Shown: one piece after another, positions 1,588 through 34,355 of the stretch
Position numbering within the stretch: the first letter of the stretch is position 1
Layout of the letters: each line of letters opens with the position of its first letter
Virus record (IMG/VR): IMGVR_UViG_3300035698_008378
Span: 1 to 48,268 of that record
From: a virus
Direction: 5' to 3' (one strand)
Length of the DNA: 48,268 nt
Notes under the pieces: model-generated
The model's database searches: none
Seen by the model: the letters and a program-made list of their open reading frames with translations, nothing else
Told to the model about the DNA's origin: nothing
Made by a program: the position numbers and the translations under genes

Positions 1588-2105
1588 AGAAACGTTATTA
1601 TATTATTGCTTGTTGTTTGTTTGTTGTGGTCGGTTTATTGGCTTGCATAAAAGCTCAGCCCAAAATACTAACAGATTTCTATATATTAGAAGAAGAGGAA
1701 TCGTGGGATTATGGTAATTCCAGTTGGTATGCTTATGAAGCTCCCAACAACACTACTGCCAATGGGGAGAGATGGATTGCTGATAATATCTCTACAGCCC
1801 ATAAAACCATGGAATTTAGTACTATTCTAGAGATTGAGAATCCAGAAACTGGTCAAATGCTTGACGTACGTGTTATAGATCGTGGGCCATTTTGTGGGGA
1901 CCGCGTGCTTGATCTTTCCCGTGGGGCGGCCAAAAGGCTTGGAATATATAAACATGGGTCTGGCATGCTTAAATATAGGATAGTAGGTAACTTATCACGC
2001 AAAGAATGGATCATATATAATAAACAAATCAACGATATAACTAAAACCAAGGAGGAACGCAATGCCATTAGGAACAAACGATTCGGGGACAGCATCGACC
2101 AGTAG
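1584..2105 (+). CDS. RlpA-like lipoprotein (double-psi beta-barrel, putative lytic transglycosylase)
   Basis: This 173-residue protein has a lipoprotein signal peptide with lipobox LLAC (residues 18-21; C21 would be lipidated). With Ile at +2 it would be expected at the outer membrane by the E. coli sorting rule. Residues 47-121 match the RlpA core: SSWYA, TTANGERW, TAHKTMEFST (H73), VRVIDRGPF (D99) and DLSRGAAKRLG. RlpA proteins cut denuded peptidoglycan glycan strands at the septum. There is no SPOR domain, so septal targeting through denuded glycan is not evident. It overlaps the HAD gene by 4 bases, and its 3' end overlaps the next gene by 44 bases in another frame. It could act in lysis or envelope remodelling. 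Confidence 0.75.
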   Translation: MKKRYYIIACCLFVVVGLLACIKAQPKILTDFYILEEEESWDYGNSSWYAYEAPNNTTANGERWIADNISTAHKTMEFSTILEIENPETGQMLDVRVIDRGPFCGDRVLDLSRGAAKRLGIYKHGSGMLKYRIVGNLSRKEWIIYNKQINDITKTKEERNAIRNKRFGDSIDQ

Positions 2106-2838
2106 TACATATTTGTCGGCTAACACTCATCAGTATGTAACTATTACCAATGCAATGGATTATACAGGTGATGGTATATCTATTGGTGCTACAGAGACCG
2201 AAGATAAACACGGCATTCATCCGATGTTGTACTTTAAGTATATAAAGAAGAATTTTGGAAAGATTGAACGGTTTAAACTTGATAGGCGCTTAAAGATACT
2301 AGAGAATGCCTGTAACAAGGCGATGGAATCGGGGCAGGTGCGCTTAAGTGAAAAGATCTTTAAGGAAATGGTGCGGTCTGCTCGTGAAAGCGCCATGTAC
2401 GCCAAGGGCGTTAAACATTTTATAGAGCACGACATTTTAAATAAGTATAAATATAAAATACGTGGTGGCCACATCTCTGATACAATGTTTAAAGAATTTA
2501 CACGCGTCATCCCAGAGAAGGTACTAAAACGTAAAAAAGAAGTTGAATGCGTGTTTGATGATTTTGTGATTTATCATTATTATAATCCAAATGCTGAAAG
2601 CACCAAAAAGATGAGCAGAGCAGAAAAATATAAAATGAGGGACCCAGTTCTCTTTGGTATTATCGCTGAAACTGATAGGCTGTATTATATAGCAGACTGG
2701 GACGACGAATTTTGTGATCTGTCCTTCGACGAAATGGTTAGTAAGATCGGTAAGAAAAGAGTACAAAAATTTAATGGCAGAACAATAGATATTAATCTCA
2801 AAGGAGAATCAGATGGCGGACACAAGGAAGATAAATAG
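2062..2838 (+). CDS. Unknown phage protein, 258 residues
   Basis: I do not recognise a family. The first 50 residues are Ser/Thr/Gly-rich and look disordered. From about residue 55 the protein is highly charged and probably helical (KFGxIERFKLDRRLKILENAC-like stretches), and the C-terminal third is mixed with FGIIAETDRLYYIADWDDE, suggesting a small beta-containing domain. The start is supported by AAGGAGGA (2049-2056) ahead of ATG 2062, inside the end of the RlpA-like gene. It overlaps the next gene by 26 bases. Residues 195-235 (a predicted strand pair with DRLYYIADWDDEFCDL) would be the best search seed. Confidence 0.7.
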   Translation: MPLGTNDSGTASTSSTYLSANTHQYVTITNAMDYTGDGISIGATETEDKHGIHPMLYFKYIKKNFGKIERFKLDRRLKILENACNKAMESGQVRLSEKIFKEMVRSARESAMYAKGVKHFIEHDILNKYKYKIRGGHISDTMFKEFTRVIPEKVLKRKKEVECVFDDFVIYHYYNPNAESTKKMSRAEKYKMRDPVLFGIIAETDRLYYIADWDDEFCDLSFDEMVSKIGKKRVQKFNGRTIDINLKGESDGGHKEDK

Positions 2839-3049
2839 TAATCTTTATCAGATTACAAATAAGAATGGTAAAGATTGCGTGATTAATACAGACAATCTTA
2901 ATATGATAACTCCAGATATAACTAGAGATGGTTCGTACAATATCTTCCAGAAAGGTCTAGCAGGTGAGCCTGTGAATGTTACTGAAGAAACGTATCGTGA
3001 ATTTATTAAAGACATGCACAATAAGGAAGATGAGAAATTACAAAAATGA
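2813..3049 (+). CDS. Small unknown phage protein, 78 residues
   Basis: It has a good Shine-Dalgarno (AAAGGAGA) and starts inside the 3' end of the previous gene. The protein is polar, with no signal peptide or membrane segment, and has no motif that I recognise. It is likely co-translated with its upstream neighbour. Its stop TGA overlaps a possible nine-codon reading frame starting ATG 3046. Confidence 0.6.
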   Translation: MADTRKINSNLYQITNKNGKDCVINTDNLNMITPDITRDGSYNIFQKGLAGEPVNVTEETYREFIKDMHNKEDEKLQK

Positions 3050-3146
3050 CTTTTGAAGAACTTGGGCGTGGTTAAAGAGCATTGAAATGCCAAAATCATC
3101 TAATACAAGAACAACACCCTGGAATTGGGAAAAACCAATGCCATAA
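3046..3146 (+). other. Two possible mini-ORFs between genes
   Basis: Two very short reading frames fill the gap: 3046-3075 (MTFEELGRG, overlapping the previous stop as ATGA) and 3087-3146 (19 codons, MPKSSNTRTTPWNWEKPMP), whose stop overlaps the Shine-Dalgarno of the next gene. The second could couple translation to the next gene. Neither has a strong ribosome-binding site, so they may be only leader sequence. Confidence 0.3.
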
Positions 3147-3156
3147 GGAGGAAGAC

Positions 3157-3402
3157 ATGCAAGAAGATTCTATGCAAAAAGAAGAATTTATACAAGAAGA
3201 TAGGTGGGCACGCAGAAATAAACACATGCGTTGTAAGACGTGTATGTATTGGGTACCCAAAACGCCACTAGAGAAATTATCTAATGATGAATGGCCACCA
3301 TTAGGTCGCTGCCGTCGCAACGCCCCTACAATGAGGGGCTGGCCCGCACTATATCAGGATGATTGGTGTGGAGAACACAAAATTGATGAGAACAAAATCT
3401 AA
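3157..3402 (+). CDS. Small four-cysteine zinc-binding-like protein
   Basis: This 81-residue protein has CKTC (C26, C29), then GRCRRNAP (C52) and WCGEHK (C71), a spacing and context often seen in small phage zinc-binding proteins of unknown role. The N-terminal 25 residues are acidic and Gln/Glu-rich. ATG 3157 is chosen because a full AAGGAGGA (3145-3152) lies just upstream. Function is unknown; DNA, RNA or protein binding are all possible. Confidence 0.65.
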   Translation: MQEDSMQKEEFIQEDRWARRNKHMRCKTCMYWVPKTPLEKLSNDEWPPLGRCRRNAPTMRGWPALYQDDWCGEHKIDENKI

Positions 3403-7036: not shown

Positions 7037-8764
7037 ATGCATGTGATGAATGAATTTGCCAATACTATCTTTTCTGAACGTTATGCATTATTTCCTGGTG
7101 AAAGTTGGGAAGACGCTTGTAATAGAGTTGCTACTCATGTAGCAATGGCCGAAAAACCACAAGATATAAAAGAGACTAAAGATGCTTTTTATGATTTAAT
7201 TATTGATAATCATTTTATGCCTGCTGGTCGTATTTGGGCTGGAGCTGGCCGCCCTAAGGCGAATCTTCTTAATTGTTTTGTTCTTCCCAATCTTAAAGAC
7301 AGCAGAGAAGAATGGGGTCAGGCCATTAAAGATGTGATTATAATAGCTGGTATGGGCGGTGGTGTTGGAATAAACTGTTCTGGAGCTAGACCACACGGGG
7401 ACCTAATCCGTGGTACTGGTGGAAAAGCCGGTGGCCCATTGGCTTTTATGGAAATTCTCAATTCTATGGGTCAAGTTATTAGAGCTTCTGGTGGTCGACG
7501 CATGGCCCTATTGTTGGGGATGGAACTAAACCATCCTGATATCGAGGCTTTCATTAGAGCAAAGAACGACGAGAATAGGCTTAATAATGCCAATGTGTCA
7601 GTAATGATACCACCTAATGGTGACGGTGCCGCTTTTTTTAAGGCCCTCAAAAAAGATACAGATTATGACCTAACCTGGGGTGATAAAACCAGAAAGACCA
7701 TAAAGGCAAGAGATTTGTGGGACACCATAGTTCATAATGCCATTACTACTGCCGAACCAGGAATTTTAAATCTTCATTTAATGAATAAGATGAACAACAT
7801 CTGGTATCATAAACCAATTGTTTGTACCAACCCTTGTGGTGAAGTTAGTGCAGAATCATATGGAGCGTGTGATCTTGGGGCATTGGTTTTACCTAAATTT
7901 GTGATTAACAACAAGATGGATTGGGCATTGTTGGCACAATCTATTAAAATTGCTGTGCGTTTCTTGGACAATGTTCTAGATACCACAAATTATCCCATTA
8001 AAGAGATTGAAGACAATGCCAAGCAAGTGCGGCGCATTGGTCTTGGTATTTCTGGATTACATGACGCTTTAATCCTCATGGGTCTAGAATATGATGACAA
8101 GGGAATTGAATTCGTAGATGAACTTATGCAATTTATTAGAGATGAAGCTTATAAAGCATCTTGCGACTTGGCAGCCTTAAAGGGTGTATTCCCTATGTAT
8201 AATCATAATAAGTTCATGGAATCTGGTTTCATTAAAGATCTGCCTCCCCACATCAAGGGATTTATTACCCAAAAGGGCATTAGAAACTGTGCCCTATTGA
8301 CTATTGCCCCTTCTGGCACCACTAGTATAATCTGTGGAACTTCTTCGGGCATAGAACCAATTTTCGCCCTTGGTTTTAAAAGAATGGTGCGAGGAGACGA
8401 AAGTGATACGGAACACATAATCACTCATCCTTTGGTTCAGCAGCTTATTAATGAAGGCAGGGCTAAGGATGCTCGTAAAATTAAAACTACCCACGATATA
8501 GACATTAGAACACATCTTGAAATGCAAAAGGTCTGTCAAAAATATACAGATAATAGTATTGCTAAGACTATTAATATGCCAAGCAAAGTTTTAAAAGATA
8601 AAAAAATGCAGAAAAAAGTGTCTGAGGTACTACTTGAATATATACCCCACCTTAAAGGAGTTACTTTATATGCAGATGGATGCAGGGGTAACGCACCTAT
8701 TCAGGGTATGTCTGCAGATGACATCATTAGAATGAATTGTCCAAAAGGCATGTGTCAAATCTAG
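7037..8764 (+). CDS. nrdJ: Class II (adenosylcobalamin-dependent) ribonucleoside-diphosphate/triphosphate reductase
   Basis: It converts ribonucleotides to deoxyribonucleotides for phage DNA synthesis, using B12 as radical source. Visible motifs are LLNCFVLP (C80, first redox Cys), TNPCGE (N265, radical Cys C267, E269), YGACDLGAL (C278, the partner redox Cys) and APSGTTS in the phosphate-binding barrel. The C-terminus ends NCPKGMCQI, giving the shuttle pair C568/C573. There is no NrdB-like radical partner gene nearby and no ATP-cone at the N-terminus, which fits a compact class II enzyme; at 575 residues it is shorter than most bacterial NrdJ. TTAGGAGA precedes the ATG, and an extended -10 promoter lies upstream. 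The family call is firm, the class well supported. Confidence 0.9.
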   Translation: MHVMNEFANTIFSERYALFPGESWEDACNRVATHVAMAEKPQDIKETKDAFYDLIIDNHFMPAGRIWAGAGRPKANLLNCFVLPNLKDSREEWGQAIKDVIIIAGMGGGVGINCSGARPHGDLIRGTGGKAGGPLAFMEILNSMGQVIRASGGRRMALLLGMELNHPDIEAFIRAKNDENRLNNANVSVMIPPNGDGAAFFKALKKDTDYDLTWGDKTRKTIKARDLWDTIVHNAITTAEPGILNLHLMNKMNNIWYHKPIVCTNPCGEVSAESYGACDLGALVLPKFVINNKMDWALLAQSIKIAVRFLDNVLDTTNYPIKEIEDNAKQVRRIGLGISGLHDALILMGLEYDDKGIEFVDELMQFIRDEAYKASCDLAALKGVFPMYNHNKFMESGFIKDLPPHIKGFITQKGIRNCALLTIAPSGTTSIICGTSSGIEPIFALGFKRMVRGDESDTEHIITHPLVQQLINEGRAKDARKIKTTHDIDIRTHLEMQKVCQKYTDNSIAKTINMPSKVLKDKKMQKKVSEVLLEYIPHLKGVTLYADGCRGNAPIQGMSADDIIRMNCPKGMCQI

Positions 8765-8788
8765 CGGGAGTGGGGGCATGTGTTCTAT

Positions 8789-8819
8789 TTGAGTAAACCA
8801 TATAGTGGTATATACTCAA
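8789..8819 (+). promoter_or_regulatory. Promoter within an inverted repeat, upstream of the basic protein gene
   Basis: TTGAGT (8789-8794) and TATACT (8811-8816) with a 16-base spacer resemble a sigma70 promoter. The same bases form an inverted repeat TTGAGTA (8789-8795) / TACTCAA (8813-8819) around an inner ACCA/TGGT pair, so the promoter could also be an operator or form a hairpin. Confidence 0.45.
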
Positions 8820-8840
8820 TTAAAGGGAGCATATTCACAT

Positions 8841-9680
8841 ATGAATACCAAAACATTATTAAAAGTGATGGAATACTATGACCGGCAGTTAGAAAAAGCC
8901 AAGAAATGTCCTGGTGGAAAAATCCGTTCTAAGGGTAAAGGAAGGGGTCTTGGTACAGGAAAAGGTAAAGGACCCATTGGTAGGCAAGGTGGGACTGACC
9001 GGGGGGGGGAAGGACCAGTAGGTCGTGGTAGAGTCCGGTTTGCCAACGAAGACACTAAGAAATCAAGGTACGAGGAATTAATAGCGCATCTTACTAAGGG
9101 TGATGGTTTCGTATCTGCCGCCGATGGTAAGGTCAATCCCAAATTAATGCAACTAAAACCCGACGAAGAAGCAGTAGTAGCTCCTAAAGATAAAAAAGAA
9201 TCATTGCCAGGGGTTGATACCAGTTCGTTTCATAGAGATGACATGAAAAAGTTAATGAGTAAATTTAAATCGCCTTTTGCTAATACACGGGAAGAAGCAG
9301 AAGAAGCAACTCAGTCTTCTGGACTAACAACAGCCAGGAGAAAAAGGCGGCCAATGGCCAGACCCAATAGGGAAAAGACCCCACCTGTTGAAACCAAAAA
9401 GTCCCGATGGGATGAATATATGGATTACCTAACAAAGGGTCCATATATTGAAGCTCCGCAGAAGTCGTTTGGTATAACAGGTAAATTAAAGGGTGGAAAA
9501 CAGGATGACCAACAGGGCCCAAGTGTTTCTGGAAAATATAAAGCCCCCACACAAGCCGATAAAATGACAGACCATAATGCATCAGTTGCTGAATATAAAA
9601 GGAATTTAGATTTAGATGTTAGTGTTCATCCAAAATTGCAATCAAGACCTTTGAAATGGTCTGATCACAACGAGGAATAA
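8841..9680 (+). CDS. Basic Gly/Lys-rich protein with internal duplicate
   Basis: This 279-residue protein begins with a short helix (LLKVMEYYDRQLEKAKK), then a Gly/Lys/Arg-rich stretch (residues 24-64), and contains two copies of one motif: KKSRYEELIAHLTKG (about 73-87) and KKSRWDEYMDYLTKG (about 186-200). Between them are acidic and basic low-complexity segments. It is not a family I know; the composition and its place just before the head genes suggest a nucleic-acid-associated or internal head protein. ATG 8841 is preceded by AAAGGGAG at a rather long spacing. Nine G bases in a row (9001-9009) lie in the Gly-rich region. Confidence 0.6.
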   Translation: MNTKTLLKVMEYYDRQLEKAKKCPGGKIRSKGKGRGLGTGKGKGPIGRQGGTDRGGEGPVGRGRVRFANEDTKKSRYEELIAHLTKGDGFVSAADGKVNPKLMQLKPDEEAVVAPKDKKESLPGVDTSSFHRDDMKKLMSKFKSPFANTREEAEEATQSSGLTTARRKRRPMARPNREKTPPVETKKSRWDEYMDYLTKGPYIEAPQKSFGITGKLKGGKQDDQQGPSVSGKYKAPTQADKMTDHNASVAEYKRNLDLDVSVHPKLQSRPLKWSDHNEE

Positions 9681-10067: not shown

Positions 10068-10877
10068 ATGAGCCACCCCAGTGATCTGTGGAGTAGATTT
10101 TCCTTCGACGTTCCAGTAGAATTAATTAAAGCAGAAGAAGACGAAAACGGATGGAAAATCCGTGGTCTTGCTTCTACTGGTGACAAAGACTTACAGGGAG
10201 AGGTTGTTAGACAAAAAGGTCTTGACATCTCACCCATTAAGAAAGGAAACGGCTGGATCAATTATAATCACAGTAATTCTCCAGAAGACATTGTTGGTAA
10301 GCTTGATAATGCAGACTTAACGACCAAAGGTCTGATGGTTGAAGGTTATCTATTTAAAAAGCATAAAAGAAGTCAGGCTATTTATCAAATTCTTAAATCA
10401 CTCGAAGACAAAGATCGCCAGTCAGTAAAATTATCCATTGAAGGAAAAATTCTTAAAAGAGTTGGAGATGAAAACAAAACAATTGCCTCTGCCAAAGTGG
10501 ATAAAGTTGCTATAACAATGGACCCAATTAACGTCAACACTTACGTGGAGCTTTGTAAAGCTATGACAGACAAAACAAGAGAATGGGGCGGAGAGGACAT
10601 CATGTCCGATGGTGACGTTAAACAAGAAAATCATGCAGCCAATTCAGCTGGTGATGCAGTTAGTACCATAGTGCCAGACAATGGTCTACCTCCATCTGAA
10701 CCAAATCTCGGCAACGCAAAAGAGATTACTCCTAATGTTCATGATTTGCTTGTTGATATTTCTAGATCTTTGACAATTTTGGTAGAACATATGGTTAACA
10801 AACCTGCTCAAGAAGAAGCCATAAAAAGTTTACAAGTTTCGTTAACCGACATGTTAAAGAAACAATTATCAAAGTAA
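10068..10877 (+). CDS. Prohead protease (phage serine protease of the HK97/T4-type superfamily)
   Basis: This 269-residue protein matches caudovirus prohead proteases, which mature the capsid by cutting scaffold and head proteins. Diagnostic parts are GLASTGDKDLQGEVV (about 33-47), GWINYNHS with catalytic-type H68, IVGKLDNADLT, and SVKLSIEGKIL with the likely nucleophile S123, followed by VDKVAITMDPIN. Beyond about residue 165 is a low-complexity linker and a helical C-terminus (residues 215-269), perhaps a scaffold-like tail. ATG is preceded by AAAGG. It is separated from capsid and scaffold genes by the fibre and sugar modules, about 21 kb away, which is unusual. Confidence 0.8.
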   Translation: MSHPSDLWSRFSFDVPVELIKAEEDENGWKIRGLASTGDKDLQGEVVRQKGLDISPIKKGNGWINYNHSNSPEDIVGKLDNADLTTKGLMVEGYLFKKHKRSQAIYQILKSLEDKDRQSVKLSIEGKILKRVGDENKTIASAKVDKVAITMDPINVNTYVELCKAMTDKTREWGGEDIMSDGDVKQENHAANSAGDAVSTIVPDNGLPPSEPNLGNAKEITPNVHDLLVDISRSLTILVEHMVNKPAQEEAIKSLQVSLTDMLKKQLSK

Positions 10878-10894: not shown

Positions 10895-13747
10895 ATGAAT
10901 GCACTCGCGGCTAAGAACGAAGTGAAGGCTATGATAGAAGAGATGATGTATCAACCACTGTCATTGTCTTTAATAAAAGGGTACGCGGATGCTTATCCTA
11001 ATATGACACAAACAGACCGCAAGGCTGCGAGGCAAGCAATAGTCAATGTGCTATTAAAAGCAGTTACTTGGACTAGACCTGCAAACATAGATAAGCCAGA
11101 AAAAAGATCTGATGCTGGTCCTACTGGGAAAACCACTTCTACTGCTGGTCAAATTAAATCAAGAGGTTTGCAGCCATTTGAAGGTGGTGTTAGTAACGTA
11201 ATTACAGATAAAAAGACTGGTAAAGAGTCGGTAGCTGATACTCATGAGGCGGCGTATAATGCTGCCATAGCGGCCCCCTGGGGTAGCGACAATAAGAGCA
11301 TTGTTGAAACTAAATATGCACCAAAATCTCTCAAAACCACACAGACTACACAGGAAAGAGTTAGTGGTACAGGTACTAATACAACAACATCTAGGAGTCT
11401 GGAACAAAAAGATCAATATAAGGAATATGTAGGCGAAAAGGGTAGGGGTGGTTATGAAGTAGCTAACACCAAATCAGTACGACCCATTGCTGAAGTTGGC
11501 AATAGGGGACACACTGTTAATATTCTAACTCATCATAAGAATCGACTGGGTGAAGAGGGTGAACATACCGGTGTAAAGCATGATGTTGGTTTTATGGATA
11601 CTGATGCCATTAAAGATGCACATAAACATTTGTCATCAGATGAATTATTAGAGGGCATGGGAGCAATGTACGTTGCTCTGCAAGGTCAACATAGTGGTAG
11701 GCAGGGTGATATTTGGGCAAAGCACGAAAAGGCGTCAAAAAAACTTGGAGTTGAACAGAAGAAAGCTGCCAAGAACGCTCCAGTTATTAATGAAGAGGGT
11801 GAGAATGTAAATAGGGGAATGCGGAAAGAGCAAGCCAAATATGAAGCAATGCACCCTGACAATAGATCTGAAGGTGCTACTGCAAGATATGAAGGTAATG
11901 CAGCTAAATTAAAAACCGCAGCTGATAGTCTAAAAGGCGATCATGCAAAGCAGCAGAATACTTTAACTGAAAATACTCTCCGCGAATATGAAAATCATAA
12001 ATCGAATGCTAATAATTTAGTAAGTCATATGGGTGCTTTTCGTGAAATGTTTAGGGATAAGGCCCCCATGGCTGGCAGTGCTATGGAAGACGAAGCAAAG
12101 CATTCACGTGCCATGAAATTTACGACTGGCTTGGTTAATGCAGCTAAACAATCATCACGCACTGAAACTTCTGGTCATGCAGAATTAACTGCTTTATCTC
12201 AGAGACATGTTGGAGCCCGCAGTAAAAGGACGACAACACCTCTTACACCCGATGAAACCAAAACTGAAGTAACAGGTAATCGTAAAGCCATTGATTCGTC
12301 ACTTGGAGATAAGATTAGTCCAGATAGCCCAGTTTTAATATCAACAAATGATAAGAGTCCTTCAATACCAGGAAAGACATTTGGTAGCAAAAGAGATTCA
12401 AAGGGAGATTTGATTCCTACTGGTGACATACCAAGTGGTACACAGCATAAAACTGACATCTCGCAAAGCTCTGGTACTGGCTATGCTGTCAATAGGCTTA
12501 CGGAAATGACAGGTGGTATGCGCCAGGGTAAAGGTAGTCGGACTGGTTTGCCTCAATTTAACATGTATGAATCTCATTCTGCGGGAGCTACAGCATCTGA
12601 CCTAGAACAAAGCAAAGCAGAGAGACGAGAGAAAAAAGAGAGAAAAATCGAAGAACCAAGTTCTTCCGCCGGAGGTGTTGGGGATACTGGTGACAACACC
12701 AGAGCTAAAACTGATGCTGCAGCTGGTTTGGGTGCTTCAACAGACCCAGAGGCAAATTTTAAACCAGGAGCAACGAAAAAACCACAGTCTGGATCGGTTG
12801 ATTATAACACTCTTGCAGACACTAGTACTCTAGCCAATAGACCATTCCCTGGTGGCGGGGAAATTCGACAAGAGGGTGAGACACGTCCTCCTAAGTCAGG
12901 AGCCACAGGATTTCAAGGCCCCATGGAAGAATATTTGACTACGCCAGGTGCAGGCATAGACGATGACGACAGAACTATACCCAAAACCTATACTAATCCT
13001 CCTGGTAAGAGTACACAAGGGAAACCATTACCGACTCAAGCAGAACAAATTAAGTCATCACTTAAGAAATTAAGTGGAGGAGTAAAATTTGAAATGTCAC
13101 AGAAGGCATTTAAAGCCATTTTGAAAGAAGTCCTTAAAAAGGCTATGACAGCTGGGCATGGTTATGCAGGTGCTCCTGGTGATATGTCCGGTGGTTCTGT
13201 TATGATGACTGAATCATTGGATAAAAAGATGTGTGCAGCTTGCGCCACAGAAACATACCACAAAGGCGAAATGTGCTTAAAATGCGCCCTTGATAAAGAA
13301 TGGGCTCCAGAAGAGTTAGCGGAATTGCGCAAAGAATTGGCCAAATTGGCAATGAAGTCATTTCTTAGGGAGAACATTACTAAGAGTTTTTCTGATGGTG
13401 GGATGATTTTACATGTATTTGCTGATAGCATATGGACAAAAATTGAAAAAGGTATATCACCAGCACACGTTGGTCATACTTCCAGTGGTAAACGCATTTT
13501 TATGAGTATGTGTCAGTTAGATCCTAATGACTATCACACATCGTTTAAAAAATCAGACCACATTGATGCCATTAAATACCATATGGCTGAAGCGTCTACA
13601 TCTAATAAAGACAATAAATATATTATGAGGGATACACACGTGTGGCATGCCATAGAGCATCTACATAAATGTTTTTATTATGCAAAAGCTTATGGTGTAG
13701 ATAAACAAGTCTTTGATTCTTTTGATGAATGGTGCTTAGAAAAATGA
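10895..13747 (+). CDS. Large head-associated protein with a capsid-arm-like segment
   Basis: The 950-residue protein is mostly hydrophilic and low-complexity (Lys/Gln/Thr/Gly), probably extended or disordered for the first 720 residues. At residues 749-775 it has KAMTAGHGYAGAP followed by GDMSGGSVMMTESL, very close to residues 26-53 of the major capsid protein (15 of 20 identical over the core). A zinc-binding-like CAAC...CLKC follows at about 783-799. The C-terminal 100 residues include AHVGHTSSGKRIFM and a DHIDAIKYH motif seen in other phage virion proteins. AGAGGAG precedes ATG 10895 and the gene directly follows the prohead protease. An internal or minor head protein processed by that protease is my best inference. 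Confidence 0.65.
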   Translation: MNALAAKNEVKAMIEEMMYQPLSLSLIKGYADAYPNMTQTDRKAARQAIVNVLLKAVTWTRPANIDKPEKRSDAGPTGKTTSTAGQIKSRGLQPFEGGVSNVITDKKTGKESVADTHEAAYNAAIAAPWGSDNKSIVETKYAPKSLKTTQTTQERVSGTGTNTTTSRSLEQKDQYKEYVGEKGRGGYEVANTKSVRPIAEVGNRGHTVNILTHHKNRLGEEGEHTGVKHDVGFMDTDAIKDAHKHLSSDELLEGMGAMYVALQGQHSGRQGDIWAKHEKASKKLGVEQKKAAKNAPVINEEGENVNRGMRKEQAKYEAMHPDNRSEGATARYEGNAAKLKTAADSLKGDHAKQQNTLTENTLREYENHKSNANNLVSHMGAFREMFRDKAPMAGSAMEDEAKHSRAMKFTTGLVNAAKQSSRTETSGHAELTALSQRHVGARSKRTTTPLTPDETKTEVTGNRKAIDSSLGDKISPDSPVLISTNDKSPSIPGKTFGSKRDSKGDLIPTGDIPSGTQHKTDISQSSGTGYAVNRLTEMTGGMRQGKGSRTGLPQFNMYESHSAGATASDLEQSKAERREKKERKIEEPSSSAGGVGDTGDNTRAKTDAAAGLGASTDPEANFKPGATKKPQSGSVDYNTLADTSTLANRPFPGGGEIRQEGETRPPKSGATGFQGPMEEYLTTPGAGIDDDDRTIPKTYTNPPGKSTQGKPLPTQAEQIKSSLKKLSGGVKFEMSQKAFKAILKEVLKKAMTAGHGYAGAPGDMSGGSVMMTESLDKKMCAACATETYHKGEMCLKCALDKEWAPEELAELRKELAKLAMKSFLRENITKSFSDGGMILHVFADSIWTKIEKGISPAHVGHTSSGKRIFMSMCQLDPNDYHTSFKKSDHIDAIKYHMAEASTSNKDNKYIMRDTHVWHAIEHLHKCFYYAKAYGVDKQVFDSFDEWCLEK

Positions 13748-26285: not shown

Positions 26286-27506
26286 ATGAAAAATAAAAAG
26301 AAAAAACTACCAAGAAATCATTGGAGTAAGATTTTAAAAAGAGAGATAGCGGCCAGAGAAAAAGCCCTTAAGGTAGCAGTTCACGGTTTATTCTTTTTAC
26401 AATCTGGCTTTGGAGAAGCTTTGCGCAACATGACTTTGGGATTGGACGCGCACGGTTGTCTTATTAAAGCAGTTTCCGCCTCCCCACATGACATCGATAA
26501 TGTGGGTGTACATTCTGACGTAAAAATCAACAGAATGATAAAACTACATAATGCCAGCATGTCTGTGTCAGAATGTCCAATCTGTATTACAATGATAGAT
26601 CCCGAAAGCGTTAAAACACACCCCAATCATTATTCCATTGCATATGTTATGTTTGAAACTGAAAAATTTCCTAAAGCTTTTGTAGATCATTTAAGGTCAC
26701 AAGACGAAATATGGACACCATCCATGTTTTGTAAGAAAACTATGACAAAAGCCGGATTAAAAAATGTCCATGTCATGCCTCTCGGTGTTGATGTAGAAAG
26801 ATTTAATCCAGACACAGTGGTTCCAATGGAACCGCCGGAGGACTTTGAAGATAGGTTTAAATTTTTAATCATATGTGGTTGGAGTGAGCGCAAAGGTATT
26901 GACGTTTTAATGAGGGCATTTGCAGAGGAATTTGATAAGGATGAAAAAGTAGGATTATACATGAAGGGCGGCTGGTATTCACTAGAAAAAGCCTATGAAA
27001 ACATGCAAAAGTACATAGGTGATATTATCCACACGTCTCCTCCGATTAAATTAGATTTTAATATCTATTCGTGTGAAGAATTACCACAACTTTATAAAAT
27101 GTGTGACTGTTATGTAATGCCAACACGTGGCGAGGGGTGGGGATTGGAGTTCAGCGAAGCGATGGCCATGGGAATGCCCACCATTGGAACCAATTGGAGT
27201 GGAAACACAGAATTTATGAATGATGATAATAGTTATCTTCTGAACAGTGACGCATTAAAACCATGCCCAGCATGTGATTGGATACATCCTCATTATATTG
27301 ATGCCAATTTTGCCAATCCGAGTAAAGATCATTTAAGAAAATTAATGAGAGAAGTGTTCGAGAACCAGAAAGAGGCAAGAGCTAAAGGTGAGTACGCCCG
27401 TAAATTCATGTCTAATAAATATACGTGGCACAAATCGGCCAAAAAAGCGTTTAATAGATTAAAAAAGATTGATAAAATGTTAAAAGATAAGAAAGGGTCA
27501 AAATGA
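26286..27506 (+). CDS. GT4-family glycosyltransferase (first)
   Basis: The 406-residue protein looks like a two-domain GT-B, retaining GT4 enzyme that transfers a sugar from a nucleotide-sugar donor. The N-terminal domain opens with a basic 30-residue tail, then AVHGLFFLQSGFGEALRNM. The C-terminal domain starts near FLIICGWSERKGIDVLMRAF (donor-binding ERKG), and the catalytic E-x7-E appears in RGEGWGLEFSEAMAMGMP (about 281-297). It is the first of seven genes in the sugar cassette and is followed by GDP-mannose dehydratase with a 4-base overlap. There is no good Shine-Dalgarno; TATAAT abuts the start but I do not count it as a promoter. Confidence 0.85.
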   Translation: MKNKKKKLPRNHWSKILKREIAAREKALKVAVHGLFFLQSGFGEALRNMTLGLDAHGCLIKAVSASPHDIDNVGVHSDVKINRMIKLHNASMSVSECPICITMIDPESVKTHPNHYSIAYVMFETEKFPKAFVDHLRSQDEIWTPSMFCKKTMTKAGLKNVHVMPLGVDVERFNPDTVVPMEPPEDFEDRFKFLIICGWSERKGIDVLMRAFAEEFDKDEKVGLYMKGGWYSLEKAYENMQKYIGDIIHTSPPIKLDFNIYSCEELPQLYKMCDCYVMPTRGEGWGLEFSEAMAMGMPTIGTNWSGNTEFMNDDNSYLLNSDALKPCPACDWIHPHYIDANFANPSKDHLRKLMREVFENQKEARAKGEYARKFMSNKYTWHKSAKKAFNRLKKIDKMLKDKKGSK

Positions 27507-28477
27507 AGAAAAAAGCGTTTATTACAGGCATTACTGGCCAAGATGGAGCCTATCTTGCAGAACTTCTTTTAAACAAAGACTACGAGGTTTATGGACTTGT
27601 GCGTCGTATCGTCAATCGCAGCATGAGCAATCTGGATTATCTTGGTATTACCAAAAAAATACATTTTGTTGATGGTGATTTGACTGACGAATGTTCTCTT
27701 ATTAATGCCATTAAAACGATCCAGCCAGACGAAGTCTATAATCTAGCAGCTCAATCATTCGTTAAAACTTCTTGGGATTGTCCAGTATCTACTACAGACA
27801 TTAATGCTAATGGCCCAATGCGTTTATTGAATGCCATTAGATTGTGGCACCCAGAAGCAAAATTTTATCAAGCCTCTACTAGTGAGATGTTTGGTAACAA
27901 TAGCGACAATGGAGTACAGACAGAAGAGACCGCATTTAAGCCTTGTAGCCCATATGCCATTGCTAAGTTATTCGCACACTGGATGACCATCAATTTTAGA
28001 GAGAGCTACGGCATGTTTACATGTTGTGGTATCCTGTTTAATCACGAATCCCCCCTTAGAGGATTAGAATTCGTCACCCGCAAAATTACGGACGGCGTGG
28101 CCCAGATCAAGATGGGGTTAGCAGATTCAATATCTTTGGGTAATTTAGACTCTACACGTGATTGGGGATTCGCTGGTGACTACGTAAAGGCGATGTGGAT
28201 GATGATGCAGCATGACGATCCGGATACGTTTATTATCTCTACCAATGAGAATCACAGCATTAGAGATTTGCTGTCGGCTGCGTTTAAACACGTTGGTATC
28301 GAAGAATGGGAACAATATGTTAAAGTTGATCCCCGATTTATGAGACCCAAAGACTTGGTAGATTTACACGGTCGCAATTGTAAGGCCAAGAATACGCTTG
28401 GCTGGACACCTGATTGTGACTTTGATAAGTTGGTGCAGATCATGATGGACGCAGATTTAAAGAGATATAACTCATGA
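27503..28477 (+). CDS. gmd: GDP-mannose 4,6-dehydratase
   Basis: This 324-residue SDR-family enzyme converts GDP-D-mannose to GDP-4-keto-6-deoxy-mannose, the precursor of fucose, rhamnose and other deoxyhexoses. Visible are the NADP-binding GITGQDG at residues 9-15, LAAQSF, the STSEMFG active-site loop (about 125-131), the SPYAIAK motif with Y151 and K155, and NHESPLRG plus FVTRKI, which are typical of GMD. It overlaps the GT4 gene (ATGA) and the next gene, so the cassette is translated in a coupled way. No downstream epimerase/reductase (such as WcaG) is seen in the window, so the final sugar is uncertain; the host may supply the last step. Confidence 0.9.
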   Translation: MKKKAFITGITGQDGAYLAELLLNKDYEVYGLVRRIVNRSMSNLDYLGITKKIHFVDGDLTDECSLINAIKTIQPDEVYNLAAQSFVKTSWDCPVSTTDINANGPMRLLNAIRLWHPEAKFYQASTSEMFGNNSDNGVQTEETAFKPCSPYAIAKLFAHWMTINFRESYGMFTCCGILFNHESPLRGLEFVTRKITDGVAQIKMGLADSISLGNLDSTRDWGFAGDYVKAMWMMMQHDDPDTFIISTNENHSIRDLLSAAFKHVGIEEWEQYVKVDPRFMRPKDLVDLHGRNCKAKNTLGWTPDCDFDKLVQIMMDADLKRYNS

Positions 28478-29121
28478 CTGGAGTATATAACAAAATGATC
28501 GGGGTTTATCTTAAACCTTGGGTATTAAAACACATTGATCCGTTGTCGGTTAATACTATCTTTGAACTTGGAAGCGGAAACGCACAAGACGCGATAGCCC
28601 TTAATGACTATTATGAAGATAGTAAGGTGCACGCATTTGAGTGTAATCCAGTCTCAATCGTGCGCTGTAAAGAAAATTTAATTGGTCATGACGACATTAA
28701 TTTTGTGGAGCAAGCAGTTAGTGACATAAATGGAAAAGTGACATTTTATCCTGTCACTAATGGGAATTTTTTGGCTTCCTCTTTATATAAAATTAAAGAC
28801 GTGAATCAATATCCGTACGACCAGTCAAAAATTTCTGTTAATGCAACTAGGCTTGATACATGGATGCAGCAAAATAACGTACCCTCTGTTGATTTAATAT
28901 GTGCTGATTTACAGGGGGCCTTGCTGCCAGCGATGAGAGGTCTTGGTTCCCATCTGCATTCTGTGAAATACATAGTCACCGAACTAGAAGTTAAAAGAAT
29001 TTATGACGGTGAATATTTATATGATGAAGTATTACACTATCTAGATTATAATGGTTTTAAACTAGTGGCTTCTAATCTAGTAACTCAGTATTTTGGTGAT
29101 TACGTATTCGTTAGAAAATAA
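28474..29121 (+). CDS. FkbM-family methyltransferase
   Basis: The 215-residue protein has a SAM-binding motif FELGSGNAQDA (about 30-40), an acidic residue after strand 2 (AFECNP), and the FkbM-typical segment SVDLICADLQGALLPAMRGL (D145; the family usually has DxEG where this has DLQG). FkbM methylates sugar hydroxyls or small molecules; here a sugar O-methyl group on the cassette's glycan is the simplest idea. It overlaps gmd by 4 bases (ATGA). Confidence 0.8.
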   Translation: MTGVYNKMIGVYLKPWVLKHIDPLSVNTIFELGSGNAQDAIALNDYYEDSKVHAFECNPVSIVRCKENLIGHDDINFVEQAVSDINGKVTFYPVTNGNFLASSLYKIKDVNQYPYDQSKISVNATRLDTWMQQNNVPSVDLICADLQGALLPAMRGLGSHLHSVKYIVTELEVKRIYDGEYLYDEVLHYLDYNGFKLVASNLVTQYFGDYVFVRK

Positions 29122-29139
29122 TTATCGGGAGATGCAAAC

Positions 29140-29814
29140 ATGAAAAATATGCCAAAAGAAACTTTAGCTATGTTATTAAAAGGGTGGGAATGGAGCGAGC
29201 GCCAGCACGAGATCCCATTCTTATTTAATCATTTGCCAGAACCGCCATCTAAAATATTAGACGTCGGATGCTGTTATAGTGCCGTCTTAACTGTATTAGA
29301 TGAACTGGGCTATGACGCATGGGGCATTGATATGCAGAAATATCATAAGCCATACGACAAATTTAAAGTGGCTGACGCTCGAAAAACACCATTTAATGAT
29401 AATGAATTTGATGTAACATGTTCCATTAGTGTTATAGAGCATGCTGGATTGGTGCCGACCCCGTACCATACTGACACAGTAGAAGATTCAGACGCAGATA
29501 TAAAAATCTTTAATGAAATGGTTAGAATTACAAAACCAGACGGAAAGATTATTATCACCATACCGTACGGGCTTGGTAATACAAATCTATATCACTGGGT
29601 TAGATTTTATGATAAACAGCGCGTCAATCGTTTCCTTAGCAATAAACAATTTGTATTAGATGAAATTGAGTATGCATATTGTACGGACAAAACAGACGGC
29701 GGCGGTGATGCGACTGCGTGGCACATATGCGACGAACAGATTGCTAGCATACAAAAGTCTTTACCCTCTAAGGTTATGGCTAATGTATGTTTTGTCGGAC
29801 ATAAAAAATTATGA
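29140..29814 (+). CDS. Class I SAM-dependent methyltransferase
   Basis: The 224-residue protein has SAM motif ILDVGCCYS (39-47), an acidic strand-2 end GIDMQ (D64), and a motif-IV region FDVTCSISVIEHAG (90-103), as in Methyltransf_11-type enzymes. It lies between the FkbM gene and two sulfotransferase-like genes and overlaps the first of them by 4 bases. It is most likely a sugar methyltransferase, but the acceptor is unknown. Confidence 0.8.
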   Translation: MKNMPKETLAMLLKGWEWSERQHEIPFLFNHLPEPPSKILDVGCCYSAVLTVLDELGYDAWGIDMQKYHKPYDKFKVADARKTPFNDNEFDVTCSISVIEHAGLVPTPYHTDTVEDSDADIKIFNEMVRITKPDGKIIITIPYGLGNTNLYHWVRFYDKQRVNRFLSNKQFVLDEIEYAYCTDKTDGGGDATAWHICDEQIASIQKSLPSKVMANVCFVGHKKL

Positions 29815-30479
29815 TAGATACAGAAAATTATAAATTAACGCAACCAAATTATACGTTTAATTATTATTATCCAAAATTAAACGCGGTGTTCTGTCACATA
29901 CCAGCTACTGGTGGTATTTTTCTTTCTAGATTATTATACATGAGAGAGCACAATTTATCTGAAGAAGATGTGCCAAGATCGTGGCAATTCTTTTCTGTTA
30001 ATGAAAAACAGCAAAAAGTACGCATTACAGATCTACATAAATATGAAGATGCATACATATTTAGTTTTGTTAGAGATCCAATAGATCGAATGTTATCATT
30101 ATTTAAACGCTTTAGATTGCAGGTTCCGAAAGAAGAAATGCACTGGCAGCACATGATTCCGAACGAAGGCCCAGAAACTTTTGATAAATTTATTAATAAC
30201 ATATGTAAATGGACAGACATTGTTAATGACGTACATCTAGTATCTCAACATAACCTACTAACGTATAATGGTGTCATGCGCCAAGATTACGTTGGTAGGA
30301 CTGAAAATTTTCACGATAATGTTTTAGAGGTTTGTGACAAGATTAACATTAAACCTCCGTCTTTTCAGAAGGTTAATCATTCTAAAGATATAGACATAGA
30401 AGTGTCTTCCTTATCGTCAGAAAAAATCTTCTGTAGATATTATAAAGATTATGAATTGTTATCACTCTTGGGTCACTAA
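29811..30479 (+). CDS. Sulfotransferase-like protein (first of tandem pair)
   Basis: The 222-residue protein resembles carbohydrate sulfotransferases of the Sulfotransfer_2 type, which move sulfate from PAPS to a sugar hydroxyl. The 5'-phosphosulfate loop is FCHIPATGGIF (about 27-37) and the 3'-phosphate motif is SFVRDPIDRMLSLF (85-98). The C-terminal YVGRTENF and VCDKINI also fit. The oddity is Ala32 where the family has the catalytic Lys (HIPKTGG). It may be inactive, use another base, or pair with the next gene. It overlaps both neighbours. Confidence 0.7.
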   Translation: MIDTENYKLTQPNYTFNYYYPKLNAVFCHIPATGGIFLSRLLYMREHNLSEEDVPRSWQFFSVNEKQQKVRITDLHKYEDAYIFSFVRDPIDRMLSLFKRFRLQVPKEEMHWQHMIPNEGPETFDKFINNICKWTDIVNDVHLVSQHNLLTYNGVMRQDYVGRTENFHDNVLEVCDKINIKPPSFQKVNHSKDIDIEVSSLSSEKIFCRYYKDYELLSLLGH

Positions 30480-31159
30480 TGTTGGTATCGCATCAATACA
30501 AATTTATCTTTTTTAAAACCATGAAGGTGGCTGGGACATCCGTAGAAGCAGTCATGGATAAATATTGTTTACCACCAGATGGAAAACATCGAGTACAAAT
30601 GCGTCGTAGGGAGTCCATTACTGAACATGGAATTAGTACTGTGCGTGGATACCTACACCCAGGCATTAAATGGGCCGACCACCTAGGAGTTGGTTTAGCT
30701 AAAAAATATTTAGACGACATAGACCCCGATATTTTTAAAACATATACTAAATTTTCTATAGTAAGAAACCCGTGGGATAAAACAGTATCTTATTATCATT
30801 GGGTGCATCCAGACCTTGCTATGTCGTTTGAAGAATTTGTGACGGACGGATGCAACATTCCAATAGATAGGTTTGTCTATTGTATTAACGACGAGATGAC
30901 TTGTGACGTTCACATTAGATATGAACACTTGCTTGATGATCTAAAAGCATTATATAATAAATTAGGTATTCCTGACGGTGATAAATTAAAAGACATCATG
31001 CCCACTTATTTAAGAAGCATTCGTATTGCCGCTGGTAGAAGGCCACTAAAACATTATTCTACATATTATACAGATCAGTCGATGATTGACAAAATATCTA
31101 AGGTTTATGACAAAGAAATAGAGTGGTTTGGCTATGAATTTGAAAATAAAAAAGGATAA
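30479..31159 (+). CDS. Sulfotransferase (second of tandem pair)
   Basis: The 226-residue protein has FFKTMKVAGTSVE with K16 at the PAPS loop position (KxAGTS) and FSIVRNPWDKTVSYYHW (92-108), the 3'-phosphate motif, so both PAPS-binding motifs are intact. The C-terminal HYSTYYTDQSMIDKISKVY and EIEWFGYEF match the ends of related bacterial and phage sulfotransferases. Start ATG shares a base with the previous TAA (TAATG). It most likely sulfates a sugar made by the cassette. A PAPS supply would come from the host. Confidence 0.8.
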   Translation: MLVSHQYKFIFFKTMKVAGTSVEAVMDKYCLPPDGKHRVQMRRRESITEHGISTVRGYLHPGIKWADHLGVGLAKKYLDDIDPDIFKTYTKFSIVRNPWDKTVSYYHWVHPDLAMSFEEFVTDGCNIPIDRFVYCINDEMTCDVHIRYEHLLDDLKALYNKLGIPDGDKLKDIMPTYLRSIRIAAGRRPLKHYSTYYTDQSMIDKISKVYDKEIEWFGYEFENKKG

Positions 31160-31164
31160 ATACT

Positions 31165-32091
31165 ATGAACATACAGTTTTTTAAAAGGGACGACAAATCA
31201 TCTTTAGATCGCGTCGGTCAATCTACCTACGATTTGTTACATGGTAGAGACAAATATGTTATGAATTTAAAAAGTATTACTAATTATGTTAAAGGCCAGA
31301 ATATTGTTAGAGCAGATGTTGGAATAGTAAGCGGATTAATTAGGGATATTTTTTGGTTGCAGAATTATAAAAAGAGGTTCGCTTATTTAGTCTGTGAAGA
31401 TTCTTTAAAACCCAGAGACATAGAAGTTCTTGATGAAGCAGAAATTAGTTCTATATGGCTACCAAGTGAATTCTGCATAGAAAAATTTCAAGAGGCTGGT
31501 TTTACAAATCTTGCACACATGCCATATGGTATAGACCCCCTACCCCCTGCTATTACCCCTGATACTGACGCATGGCGATTCGGGATGGTATTTAATTCAT
31601 ATAATAATCCCAATTTTCATGTGCGTAGAAAGGGTATTTTTGAAGTTTTACAAGCCTTCGCCAAATTAGGAGGGGATTTAGAATTGTGGCTCAGAACTGA
31701 TGACCAAAAATATTATGATGTATTTAAAGATTGTGTAAACATAAAATTCATACCATATCAAGAAAATTTAGATGAATTTTATAATTCAGTACATTGTATA
31801 CTGGCTCCCTCCTTTGTTGAAGGATTTGGTTTAATAGGAATGGAAGCAATAGCTAGAGGAAAGCCACTCATATCTACCAAAACTGGCAATGATTATCTTA
31901 CTGAAGAAGTATCCCATATAAATCTAGATACGGTAAATAAAGATACTATATCTGATGCGGTCGTGGACATGATTGCTAATTATGACACATATTTAGGTAA
32001 AGCAACCAGTCAGATGGCCAGATTTCAAAAACTTCATAGTTGGGAGTTTAAATACGATATAGTGTCTTCATTAATAGATAACAGTTATTAA
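31165..32091 (+). CDS. GT4-family glycosyltransferase (second)
   Basis: This 308-residue protein lacks a full N-terminal GT-B domain but has the GT4 catalytic end: LAPSFVEGFGLIGMEAIARGKPLIST, with E219 and E227 in the E-x7-E pattern. The VRRKGIFEVLQAFAKL segment matches the donor-binding end of domain 2. It could transfer the modified sugar or extend the chain. It closes the cassette; a 78-base AT-rich gap follows before the scaffold gene. Confidence 0.8.
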   Translation: MNIQFFKRDDKSSLDRVGQSTYDLLHGRDKYVMNLKSITNYVKGQNIVRADVGIVSGLIRDIFWLQNYKKRFAYLVCEDSLKPRDIEVLDEAEISSIWLPSEFCIEKFQEAGFTNLAHMPYGIDPLPPAITPDTDAWRFGMVFNSYNNPNFHVRRKGIFEVLQAFAKLGGDLELWLRTDDQKYYDVFKDCVNIKFIPYQENLDEFYNSVHCILAPSFVEGFGLIGMEAIARGKPLISTKTGNDYLTEEVSHINLDTVNKDTISDAVVDMIANYDTYLGKATSQMARFQKLHSWEFKYDIVSSLIDNSY

Positions 32092-32169: not shown

Positions 32170-32802
32170 ATGGATCTCAAAGATCTCAACCTCGACAAAG
32201 CCTCCATTGAGAAGTTGCTTGAGGGAGTTGTAGAAGTAGCAGTAGATGAATTGTACAAGGCAGAACCGAACAATGCAGAACCTGGTCTTGCCAACGATTT
32301 TGCGGAGTCTGATGCAGTAGCCGCTGCCGAAGGTGTTGCAACCAAGGCAGAGGATAGTGACGACGACGATGATGAAGACGAAGACGAAGATGGAAAGAAA
32401 AAGAAACAGGCATCGAGTTATCTAGATTCTAGAAAATCTGATACCAGTTCACCTGATCTCAACAAATCTATTATGAAGAGTGTTGTTGGGATGCAAAAGG
32501 CCATTACTGGTCTTAGTGAGCAAGTTGCATCATTGTCTAAGGGAGCAGCTCGTGGGCCCAAGGCAGTAATAAAGGAGAACGAAGTGGAAATTATCGAAAA
32601 AGGTGCCGTAAATGAAGATGAAGGTAACCTAGACAACATGATTAAAGCCCAACCTCGTCTAGTTGGTGCCGCGTTGGCTAAGATGCATTCTGAAGGCAAA
32701 ATCACTGGTCAGTATCTTACAGAGTTTGAGCTTTTTGGAGTAAATAAACTAACACCAACCATTAAGAAGGCTGCACTAGCAGAAGCCAATCTTATTAAGT
32801 AA
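32170..32802 (+). CDS. Scaffold/prohead core protein
   Basis: This 210-residue protein is placed directly before the major capsid gene and has a scaffold-like composition. It has an acidic central run (about residues 60-76, mainly Asp and Glu), then KKKKQ, a helical middle (MKSVVGMQKAITGLSEQVASL), and a charged C-terminus. It would fill the prohead and be cut by the protease. GAAAGGAG precedes ATG. The call is from position and composition, not from sequence similarity. Confidence 0.65.
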   Translation: MDLKDLNLDKASIEKLLEGVVEVAVDELYKAEPNNAEPGLANDFAESDAVAAAEGVATKAEDSDDDDDEDEDEDGKKKKQASSYLDSRKSDTSSPDLNKSIMKSVVGMQKAITGLSEQVASLSKGAARGPKAVIKENEVEIIEKGAVNEDEGNLDNMIKAQPRLVGAALAKMHSEGKITGQYLTEFELFGVNKLTPTIKKAALAEANLIK

Positions 32803-32831: not shown

Positions 32832-34355
32832 ATGTTTGATCAAATTCAAAACGGCTTCGGTGCAAACGGTGTAGCACTTGGTGCACGCGAAGTTGAAGAA
32901 ATGGCGAAAGCCTTAACAACTGGTGATTACGGTTATGCCGGAGTTCCAGGAAGTATGTCAAGTGGTTCAGTCCTCATGGTTGAATCTCTTGAATATACGT
33001 TGCATTCAGTAACGTGGGACGAGAAACATCTTCGCATTTGGCCGATTTTTCCTAAGGCTGAAGTGTGGAATACAGTCCACGAGTACAATCGCTATACGGG
33101 ACACGGCGAACAGTATGAGTCCGGTGGTTTCTTTGATGCCGATGCTCAGGTCCTGCCTCTTGAAAATAACGCTCAATTCAACCGCCAGTTCGTCAAAGTG
33201 CGGTACGTTGGTTGCACGAAGGCCGTAACGCATCCAATGACTCTAGTTCGTACGTCAGTTGAATCTGCAGTGGCAATCGAAGCACGTGCAGGTACGAAGT
33301 GGATTCTTGAACAGATGGAACGCCAGATTTTTATGGCCAATGATGATTTCGTCGTTGCCGCCACTGGTGTTTTCACTGGTGCAGGCGTTCCAGAAACATC
33401 GCTTAAGTTTGACGGTCTTGGCCGCCAGATTCTCTTCGGAGATACGGATGCCACGGCGCAGTACCTTGGATTCGCCGGTTACGGTGGCAATCCTTCAGTT
33501 GTTTACAACATGCAGGGTTCAGTGCCAGACGAGGAAGATTACGAAGCAGCACCTCGCATCATGGCAGAGAATTTCGGTATGCCAACTCATTTCTTCATGG
33601 ATTTTAAGACGCATGCAGATATGAACCGTCAGTTCCAGCCAAAAGAACGCATCACCCCAATGGGCGTGGTTAACGGTCAGGCCGGTTTCGTCCTTACCCA
33701 GTTCTATTCTTCAGCTGGTGTTTTCAATATCGTTCCTAGTAAGTTCCTTTCTCCGAAAGATACGCCACTTGGAACGGCTCAGTCAGTGCCTGGTGCAACG
33801 ACTCCTACGCCATATACGAATCCGGCCACATATGCTGCACCGGCCACCCCAGTTCTTACCGGCTTGGCGGTCGAAGCAGATACCACGTCAGAGTTGGCAG
33901 CTGGTACGTACAGCTATCGTATCTCTGCATTGAATAACGTCGGAGAATCAGTTGGTTCTGTACAGCAGACGCAAGTCGTTGCAGCAAACCAGAGGGTTAT
34001 CCTCACCATCGCTGCTGATACCGCTGGTGCAACGTATTACGCCATGTATCGTGCGCCTCGTAACACGATTGTGGGCCATAAATTCGTCGGTTTCGTTGCA
34101 GATTCTACCCCCACTCCTGGTGGCGGCGGAGTAGTAGCCTGTGAAGCAGGCCATAAGTATCCTGGTCTGGCCAAGGCTTTCTTGCTGCAGCTCATGCCGC
34201 AGGAAATGCAGTGGATGCAGTTAGCACCTCTCATGAAGATGAATCTGGCAGTCCTTGCGCCAGCCATTCGTTTCATGGTCCTAATTTACGGTATGCCTAT
34301 CCTTTATACGCCACGGCATCAATTGCTTGTGACGAATATCGGAAAGTCTGCGTAA
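32832..34355 (+). CDS. Major capsid protein with Ig/FnIII-like inserted domain
   Basis: The 507-residue protein is a HK97-fold type major capsid candidate. It follows the scaffold gene, has a strong Shine-Dalgarno (GAAAGGAG) and ends at a strong terminator. The N-terminal arm has residues 34-53 starting GYAGVPGSMSSGS. The body (EYNRYTGHGEQYESGGFF, VGCTKAVTHPMTLVRTS) fits capsid subunits. Residues about 330-435 (PATPVLTGLAVEAD, AAGTYSYRISALNNVGESVGS) are an Ig/FnIII-like insertion, followed by a last capsid segment (LLQLMPQEMQWMQLAPLMKMNLAVLAPAIRF). Codon use is richer in G+C than its neighbours, as in a highly expressed gene. Confidence 0.85.
   Translation: MFDQIQNGFGANGVALGAREVEEMAKALTTGDYGYAGVPGSMSSGSVLMVESLEYTLHSVTWDEKHLRIWPIFPKAEVWNTVHEYNRYTGHGEQYESGGFFDADAQVLPLENNAQFNRQFVKVRYVGCTKAVTHPMTLVRTSVESAVAIEARAGTKWILEQMERQIFMANDDFVVAATGVFTGAGVPETSLKFDGLGRQILFGDTDATAQYLGFAGYGGNPSVVYNMQGSVPDEEDYEAAPRIMAENFGMPTHFFMDFKTHADMNRQFQPKERITPMGVVNGQAGFVLTQFYSSAGVFNIVPSKFLSPKDTPLGTAQSVPGATTPTPYTNPATYAAPATPVLTGLAVEADTTSELAAGTYSYRISALNNVGESVGSVQQTQVVAANQRVILTIAADTAGATYYAMYRAPRNTIVGHKFVGFVADSTPTPGGGGVVACEAGHKYPGLAKAFLLQLMPQEMQWMQLAPLMKMNLAVLAPAIRFMVLIYGMPILYTPRHQLLVTNIGKSA

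Follow-up and report, generated by a model that had tools for sequence, protein, structure and literature searches.

A second copy of the capsid protein N-arm behind a predicted maturation site: a candidate procapsid docking module in SPO1-like phages

The N-terminal arm of the major capsid protein (MCP) of an SPO1-type myophage is encoded twice in its genome: once in the MCP itself, and once within a 950-aa protein whose gene follows that of the prohead protease. From its position behind a predicted K/A cleavage site and its likeness to arms found in the protease tails of related phages, we read the second copy with its site as the counterpart of the relatives' protease-tail arm and as a cleavable module that would dock its carrier in the procapsid (estimated probability about 0.6). 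Sequence comparison and the structure of a homologue provide the two-copy architecture, the protease-type ancestry of the second arm, the lysine at P1 and the start of the mature MCP.

RESULTS

The MCP arm occurs twice in the window phage

The stretch of DNA analysed here, called the window, is a viral record of 48,268 bases. In a PHROG scan its MCP matched phrog_752, annotated 'major head protein' (E=1.5e-62), and 532 GenBank phage records, most of them from Herelleviridae hosts, align over most of it at ~20–30% identity. The window protease matched phrog_1028 in the same kind of scan (8.9e-30) with residues 15–160 only, and K-A is kept directly after its catalytic domain (ELCKAMT). The features used below are the following.

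10068..10877, + strand: prohead (head maturation) protease, phrog_1028; catalytic domain only, tail without arm
10895..13747, + strand: gene of the 950-aa protein; basic Cys-free N-part (residues 1–749) and C-part (750–950) made up of arm, CxxC..CxxC and a helical region
13130..13222, + strand: MCP-arm-like module, residues 746–776 of the 950-aa protein (VLKKAMTAGHGYAGAPGDMSGGSVMMTESLD)
13139..13144, + strand: predicted prohead-protease scissile bond K749/A750 of the 950-aa protein; aligns with MCP K26/A27
13232..13285, + strand: CxxC-x10-CxxC zinc-ribbon-like motif of the 950-aa protein (C780, C783, C794, C797)
32170..32802, + strand: acidic 210-aa protein, probable scaffold; lies immediately before the MCP gene, as in SPO1
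32832..34355, + strand: major capsid protein, SPO1-type, 507 aa, phrog_752; predicted propeptide 1–26, arm ~27–57
32907..32912, + strand: predicted MCP cleavage K26/A27; the 9row chain starts at the homologous P1'

The 950-aa gene starts 17 bases after the protease gene. The same order of protease and 950-aa-type genes, with gaps of 3 and 10 bases, recurs in G001 and G002, two relatives found in the same sample, whose MCPs are 71% and 61% identical to that of the window over the best segment. Between the tail-fibre-like genes and the scaffold/MCP genes of the window lies a block (26286–32091) of genes that resemble, by eye, glycosyltransferase, sugar-nucleotide dehydratase, methyltransferase and sulfotransferase genes; the block is also present in G001.

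Residues 756–775 of the 950-aa protein (GYAGAPGDMSGGSVMMTESL) and residues 34–53 of the MCP (GYAGVPGSMSSGSVLMVESL) are identical at 15 of 20 positions, a recount that agrees with the original prediction. The K-A-(L/M)-T-x-G reported upstream of both segments is also there, as KAMTAGH in the 950-aa protein and KALTTGDY in the MCP. Over 60 bases the DNA is 70% identical, with the same codon at 6 of the 15 shared residues; this excludes a recent copy, as had been proposed. Local alignment of the MCP N-terminus with the whole 950-aa protein gave p~6e-8 against shuffles, and the same test in the two relatives gave 7e-14 and 2e-11. The window copy matches a profile of arm copies that includes it at E=1.7e-17. 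Searching with an arm profile, as the original prediction had suggested, returned two places only, and no third, in the full ORF set of every one of the three phages, and six-frame scans of the three records found exactly two copies in each. With two copies per phage we rejected an arm common to many head proteins, and the segment does not behave as a compositional element recurring in unrelated phage proteins, a possibility that the original prediction had itself raised.

No PHROG or Pfam family match was found for the 950-aa protein. Compared as a whole with viral contigs and GenBank phages it has no match, and only the conserved C-part finds relatives. The CxxC region reached E=0.047 against Pfam DZR_2, below the cut-off, and Foldseek returned no significant match. 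AlphaFold models had a mean pLDDT of 28.8 for the MCP and 50.7 for the C-part, both too poor to test docking. The N-part as a degradable scaffold is unsupported, K-S and K-A being not clearly enriched there.

The segment corresponds to the mature N-arm behind a predicted protease site

Aligned with its homologues, the segment is the N-arm of the mature MCP, placed directly behind a predicted prohead-protease site K/A. In the solved MCP of the phage K type (PDB 9row, 9rox, 9roz) the first residue is exactly the serine after precursor K24, and this position aligns with both K26/A27 of the window MCP and K749/A750. K26 is invariant in 8 aligned MCPs, and the homologous lysine followed by S or A is found in the 950-aa protein as K749-A750. 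The HK97 MCP is cut at K103/S104, a site that precedes its N-arm (PMC10275583). What the 950-aa protein has in common with the MCP is the arm alone: the capsid domain (HK97 fold) is absent behind it, where ~175 residues with CxxC..CxxC follow.

Most SPO1-like phages carry a second arm in the protease tail

Judged from their protein sequences, a second arm copy is a general, though not universal, feature of SPO1-like phages. Twelve of 13 sampled GenBank phages with an SPO1-type MCP have it in the C-terminal tail of the prohead protease; in SPO1 the protease reads DKSLEAGYEVDPEKMEGGDVFRKESL and the MCP NKALEAGHTVNPLDLEGGGAFRVESL. Independently, a PHROG scan matched the MCP family phrog_752 to residues 163–206 of the SPO1 protease (4.4e-5) and 153–208 of the phage K protease (4.4e-6). 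Six-frame scans found exactly two copies in 15 of 16 whole records; the exception, Bacteroides phage DAC19, has one, and a second was not found even with its own arm as query.

A broad MCP search added 78 viral contigs and yielded 61 distinct environmental protease/MCP pairs. The arm was detected in the protease tail at p<0.01 in 47 of the 61; the controls gave 2 (reversed tails), 2 (catalytic part) and 1 (MCP body). Both samples, GenBank and viral contigs, are phylogenetically dependent, and the figures count records or distinct proteins rather than independent events. Wherever the position was aligned (43 of 43 pairs), K stood opposite K, with A, S or T next. A significant copy was missing in ~14 of the 61 environmental proteases, some of which look degenerate by eye (e.g. 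EKALAVSGGSPVVPQSLEG in L099) and others of which show none. Four contigs (L058, L060, L061, L063) encode proteases of 241–248 aa and clear MCP arms, with a second arm not found in the whole contig. Nor was a convincing arm copy found in the proteases of T4, HK97 or Felix O1. A description of an arm copy in a prohead protease was not found in the literature searched, which included few subscription journals. The 547-aa prohead protease of L074 and L076 (ORF 7281–8921) contains an apparent intein (CFPGDTAVSG...VVHN/C), inserted at ...NVAITN/CPVNTDCTW.

The second arm of the window lineage is of protease type

The arm was not found in the proteases of the window phage and its two relatives (p 0.4–0.8), although all three retain K-A immediately after the catalytic domain. 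In the window it does not share a polypeptide with the protease catalytic domain, which is a separate ORF (10068–10877); the carrier in this lineage is the 950-aa protein, the product of the next gene. We compared the arms of the three 950-aa-type proteins with profiles of the protease arms and the MCP arms of near relatives. On the protease-arm profile they reached 54.8, 55.1 and 57.2 bits and on the MCP-arm profile 37.1, 46.3 and 38.9 bits, an advantage of +17.7, +8.8 and +18.3 bits (8.8–18.3) for the former, both profiles having been built without the window copy (54.8/37.1). The three MCP arms of the lineage have the reverse preference, scoring higher on the MCP-arm profile, and leave-one-out controls separate the two types cleanly. 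Since it scores as protease-type and not as MCP-type, the 950-aa arm would be a displaced protease-tail arm, and the module was probably detached from the protease and joined to a basic protein that is likely to be disordered. The original prediction had missed both this type and the protease-tail arm of most relatives.

The short tail domain of the relatives' proteases was not detected behind the 950-aa arm (hhalign probability 0.5%), and its retention in the C-part is unsupported. As profile comparison detects no relation between the C-part behind the arm and the protease tails, the arm alone can be traced.

Several phages have bridging forms. The protease of L039 (512 aa) has its arm at 434–472 and an insertion resembling inorganic pyrophosphatase, and that of Myxococcus phage Mx1 (1239 aa) has its arm near residue 242. 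In G004 no arm was seen in the 606-aa protease, and a separate 264-aa protein starting MEKALTVGHSG has a weak arm-like segment (E=1.9e-4) at its very start (MEK/ALTVG). A cut there would release three residues only, which counts against the docking reading. A long sequence may have been inserted between catalytic domain and arm in the history of the window lineage, the gene then splitting into two.

A separate window gene (37824–38324) encodes an inorganic-pyrophosphatase-like domain (PF18823), and a stretch that looks similar by eye lies between catalytic domain and arm in the 512-aa L039 protease (1750–3285). DUF5661 (PF18905) is likewise a separate window gene (37333–37821), and a similar stretch can be seen by eye after the arm-like segment of the 264-aa G004 protein (L143 5767–6561). 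The 291-aa protein encoded in front of the window protease (8805–9680) contains the stretch KKCPGxKIRSKGKGRGxGxGxxKGPIGR, also present in the tail of the 731-aa G009 protease (L144 725–2920), right behind a degenerate arm. Head modules thus seem to be mobile between genes.

The two copies are coupled within genomes

The two arm copies of one genome share on average 63% identity; comparison between clades gives 34% for MCP arms and 35% for second copies. When representatives were paired at random, the observed value was reached in 0 of 20,000 trials (permutation p 5e-5). Identity that is higher within genomes than between clades is the opposite of what two ancient independent segments would give. 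Continuing coevolution is more likely here than recent gene conversion, since MCP-type and protease-type arms stay apart in close relatives and codons differ in the window; repeated conversion may also have played a part.

Docking and other roles of the second arm

Conservation past the K/A bond, on its primed side, reaches ~25–35 residues. Scaffold candidates of relatives are enriched in K-S (12 against 3.1 expected in SPO1). In the window group it is K-A that is enriched in the probable scaffold (7–8 against ~3 expected; window, 7 against 3.1), which fits the P1' residue of window-group MCPs. Record scans found no arm in the scaffold candidates despite their many K-S/K-A sites. The original prediction had offered capsid binding, a shared cleavage context or a capsid-derived anchor. 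The cleavage context holds in part, but a cleavage site alone is insufficient, given the conserved primed-side residues and the scaffolds without an arm. By the same two observations we argue for docking over enzyme recognition. The latter, the main rival and one to which we give a minor but appreciable chance, would make the arm a substrate-recognition or pseudosubstrate element that binds the primed side of the prohead protease, with the same enzyme reading both copies; the tail copy, which here lies in the following gene, would act as an autocleavage site or as a timer holding the enzyme back up to the end of assembly. Such a role would agree with the lysine kept before nearly all copies, and copies coevolving with their own protease would explain the similarity within genomes. 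However, the conserved stretch is long for a protease subsite, the arm should be unneeded for cutting if scaffolds rich in sites do without it, and the small G004 protein keeps its arm-like segment with almost nothing before the site.

The two parts of the 950-aa protein differ sharply at the predicted cut. The N-part has a pI of 9.3 (9.3–9.7 in three homologues), no Cys and 20% hydrophobic residues, whereas the C-parts of three homologues hold 4–7 Cys. Among these homologues (whole-protein identity 23%) the N-terminal 685–760 residues are hardly alignable, while the arm is almost unchanged and all four cysteines of the zinc-binding-like CxxC pair that the original prediction had placed behind it are invariant. 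A C-terminal region conserved in this way, in a fragment that would begin like mature MCP, is what would be expected of a permanent structural part: the fragment would be retained in the shell in a minor capsid or cement role. Its arm would take the place of an MCP arm in the lattice and its zinc-ribbon part would be exposed, the N-part being just a propeptide. Most relatives, however, have a short Cys-less protease tail behind the arm, so that a shell role would be new to this lineage, and we find it quite improbable.

Still harder to credit is a relic of an ancestral protease–MCP polyprotein with the arm directly after the protease, the leftover copy being functionless. The order protease, K/S, arm is that expected of a fused precursor, and the catalytic part of the SPO1 protease also matches phrog_617 (626 positions, annotated major head protein), but without a function the copy would not have kept, across clades, 63% identity to the MCP arm encoded in the same genome, nor have outlived a move to another gene. 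Chance or compositional similarity, which a short Gly/Ser-rich segment might invite, can be dismissed given the shuffle p values, the two-copy scans and the 47 of 61 pairs against controls at 1–2 of 61.

DISCUSSION

The N-arm of HK97-type heads starts out flexible, in the immature shell, and at a later stage forms contacts between capsomers (PMC12749128), so an arm-bearing protein could enter at the same contacts or through a partner that holds the arm prior to maturation. According to the docking reading, the arm copy would dock its carrier at the procapsid site that receives the MCP N-arm or its scaffold partner, and the carrier would be built into the immature head. The protease would then cut at the predicted K749/A750. 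This would free a basic N-part of ~80 kDa, probably disordered, inside the head and leave a 22 kDa fragment with a mature-MCP-like start and the zinc-ribbon-like motif. In relatives, a cut at K/S or K/A would free the protease itself inside the head. The steps that we infer are docking, the cut in the 950-aa protein and what becomes of its two fragments.

In a broader and more tentative form, which we hold to be possible, the MCP N-arm mimic would be a detachable address tag. Through the MCP-arm site it would carry the protease, and here also a large basic protein, into the procapsid; coevolution would keep it matched to the MCP, and the shell-maturing enzyme would cut it off. For the window lineage it would be a transferable module delivering a separate internal protein. 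Recruitment of maturation proteases and internal proteins into procapsids is understood in few phages, and a coevolving MCP-arm mimic in two copies would be a concrete, testable answer for SPO1-like phages, among them the well-studied groups of SPO1, K/812 and A511. Such a mimic predicts where scaffold, protease and MCP are cleaved, and might serve as a natural tag for loading proteins into SPO1-like heads.

The closest known proteins are the SPO1-like proteases (SPO1 gp3.2, phage K ORF42 and the A511 type; phrog_1028), of the same catalytic family as the window protease. In these relatives K/S or K/A and then a copy of the MCP arm stand in the C-terminal tail of the protease, whereas in the window the arm is absent from the protease and present in the 950-aa protein encoded downstream, together with a large basic N-part and a zinc-ribbon-like C-part.

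A cleavable protease tail has a precedent in SPN3US, whose prohead protease gp245 removes its own 64-residue C-terminal propeptide during head maturation (PMC10052503). It differs in its motif, AXE; the passages of the source that were consulted mention no MCP-arm copy (PMC10052503), and the window segment lies in another gene. For docking through a protease tail, herpesviruses offer a precedent: the C-termini of protease and scaffold bind the MCP, and their perturbation impairs closing of the shell (PMC8539031). That source does not present the herpesvirus tail as a copy of an MCP arm (PMC8539031), and the likeness is one of working only. In T4, no convincing copy of the gp23 arm was found in the protease gp21. 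The targeting propeptides of T4 head proteins are N-terminal, cleavable and unrelated to the arm. They target proteins into the prohead core (PMC10052503). Like the arm as we read it, they are cleavable elements that bring a protein into the immature head.
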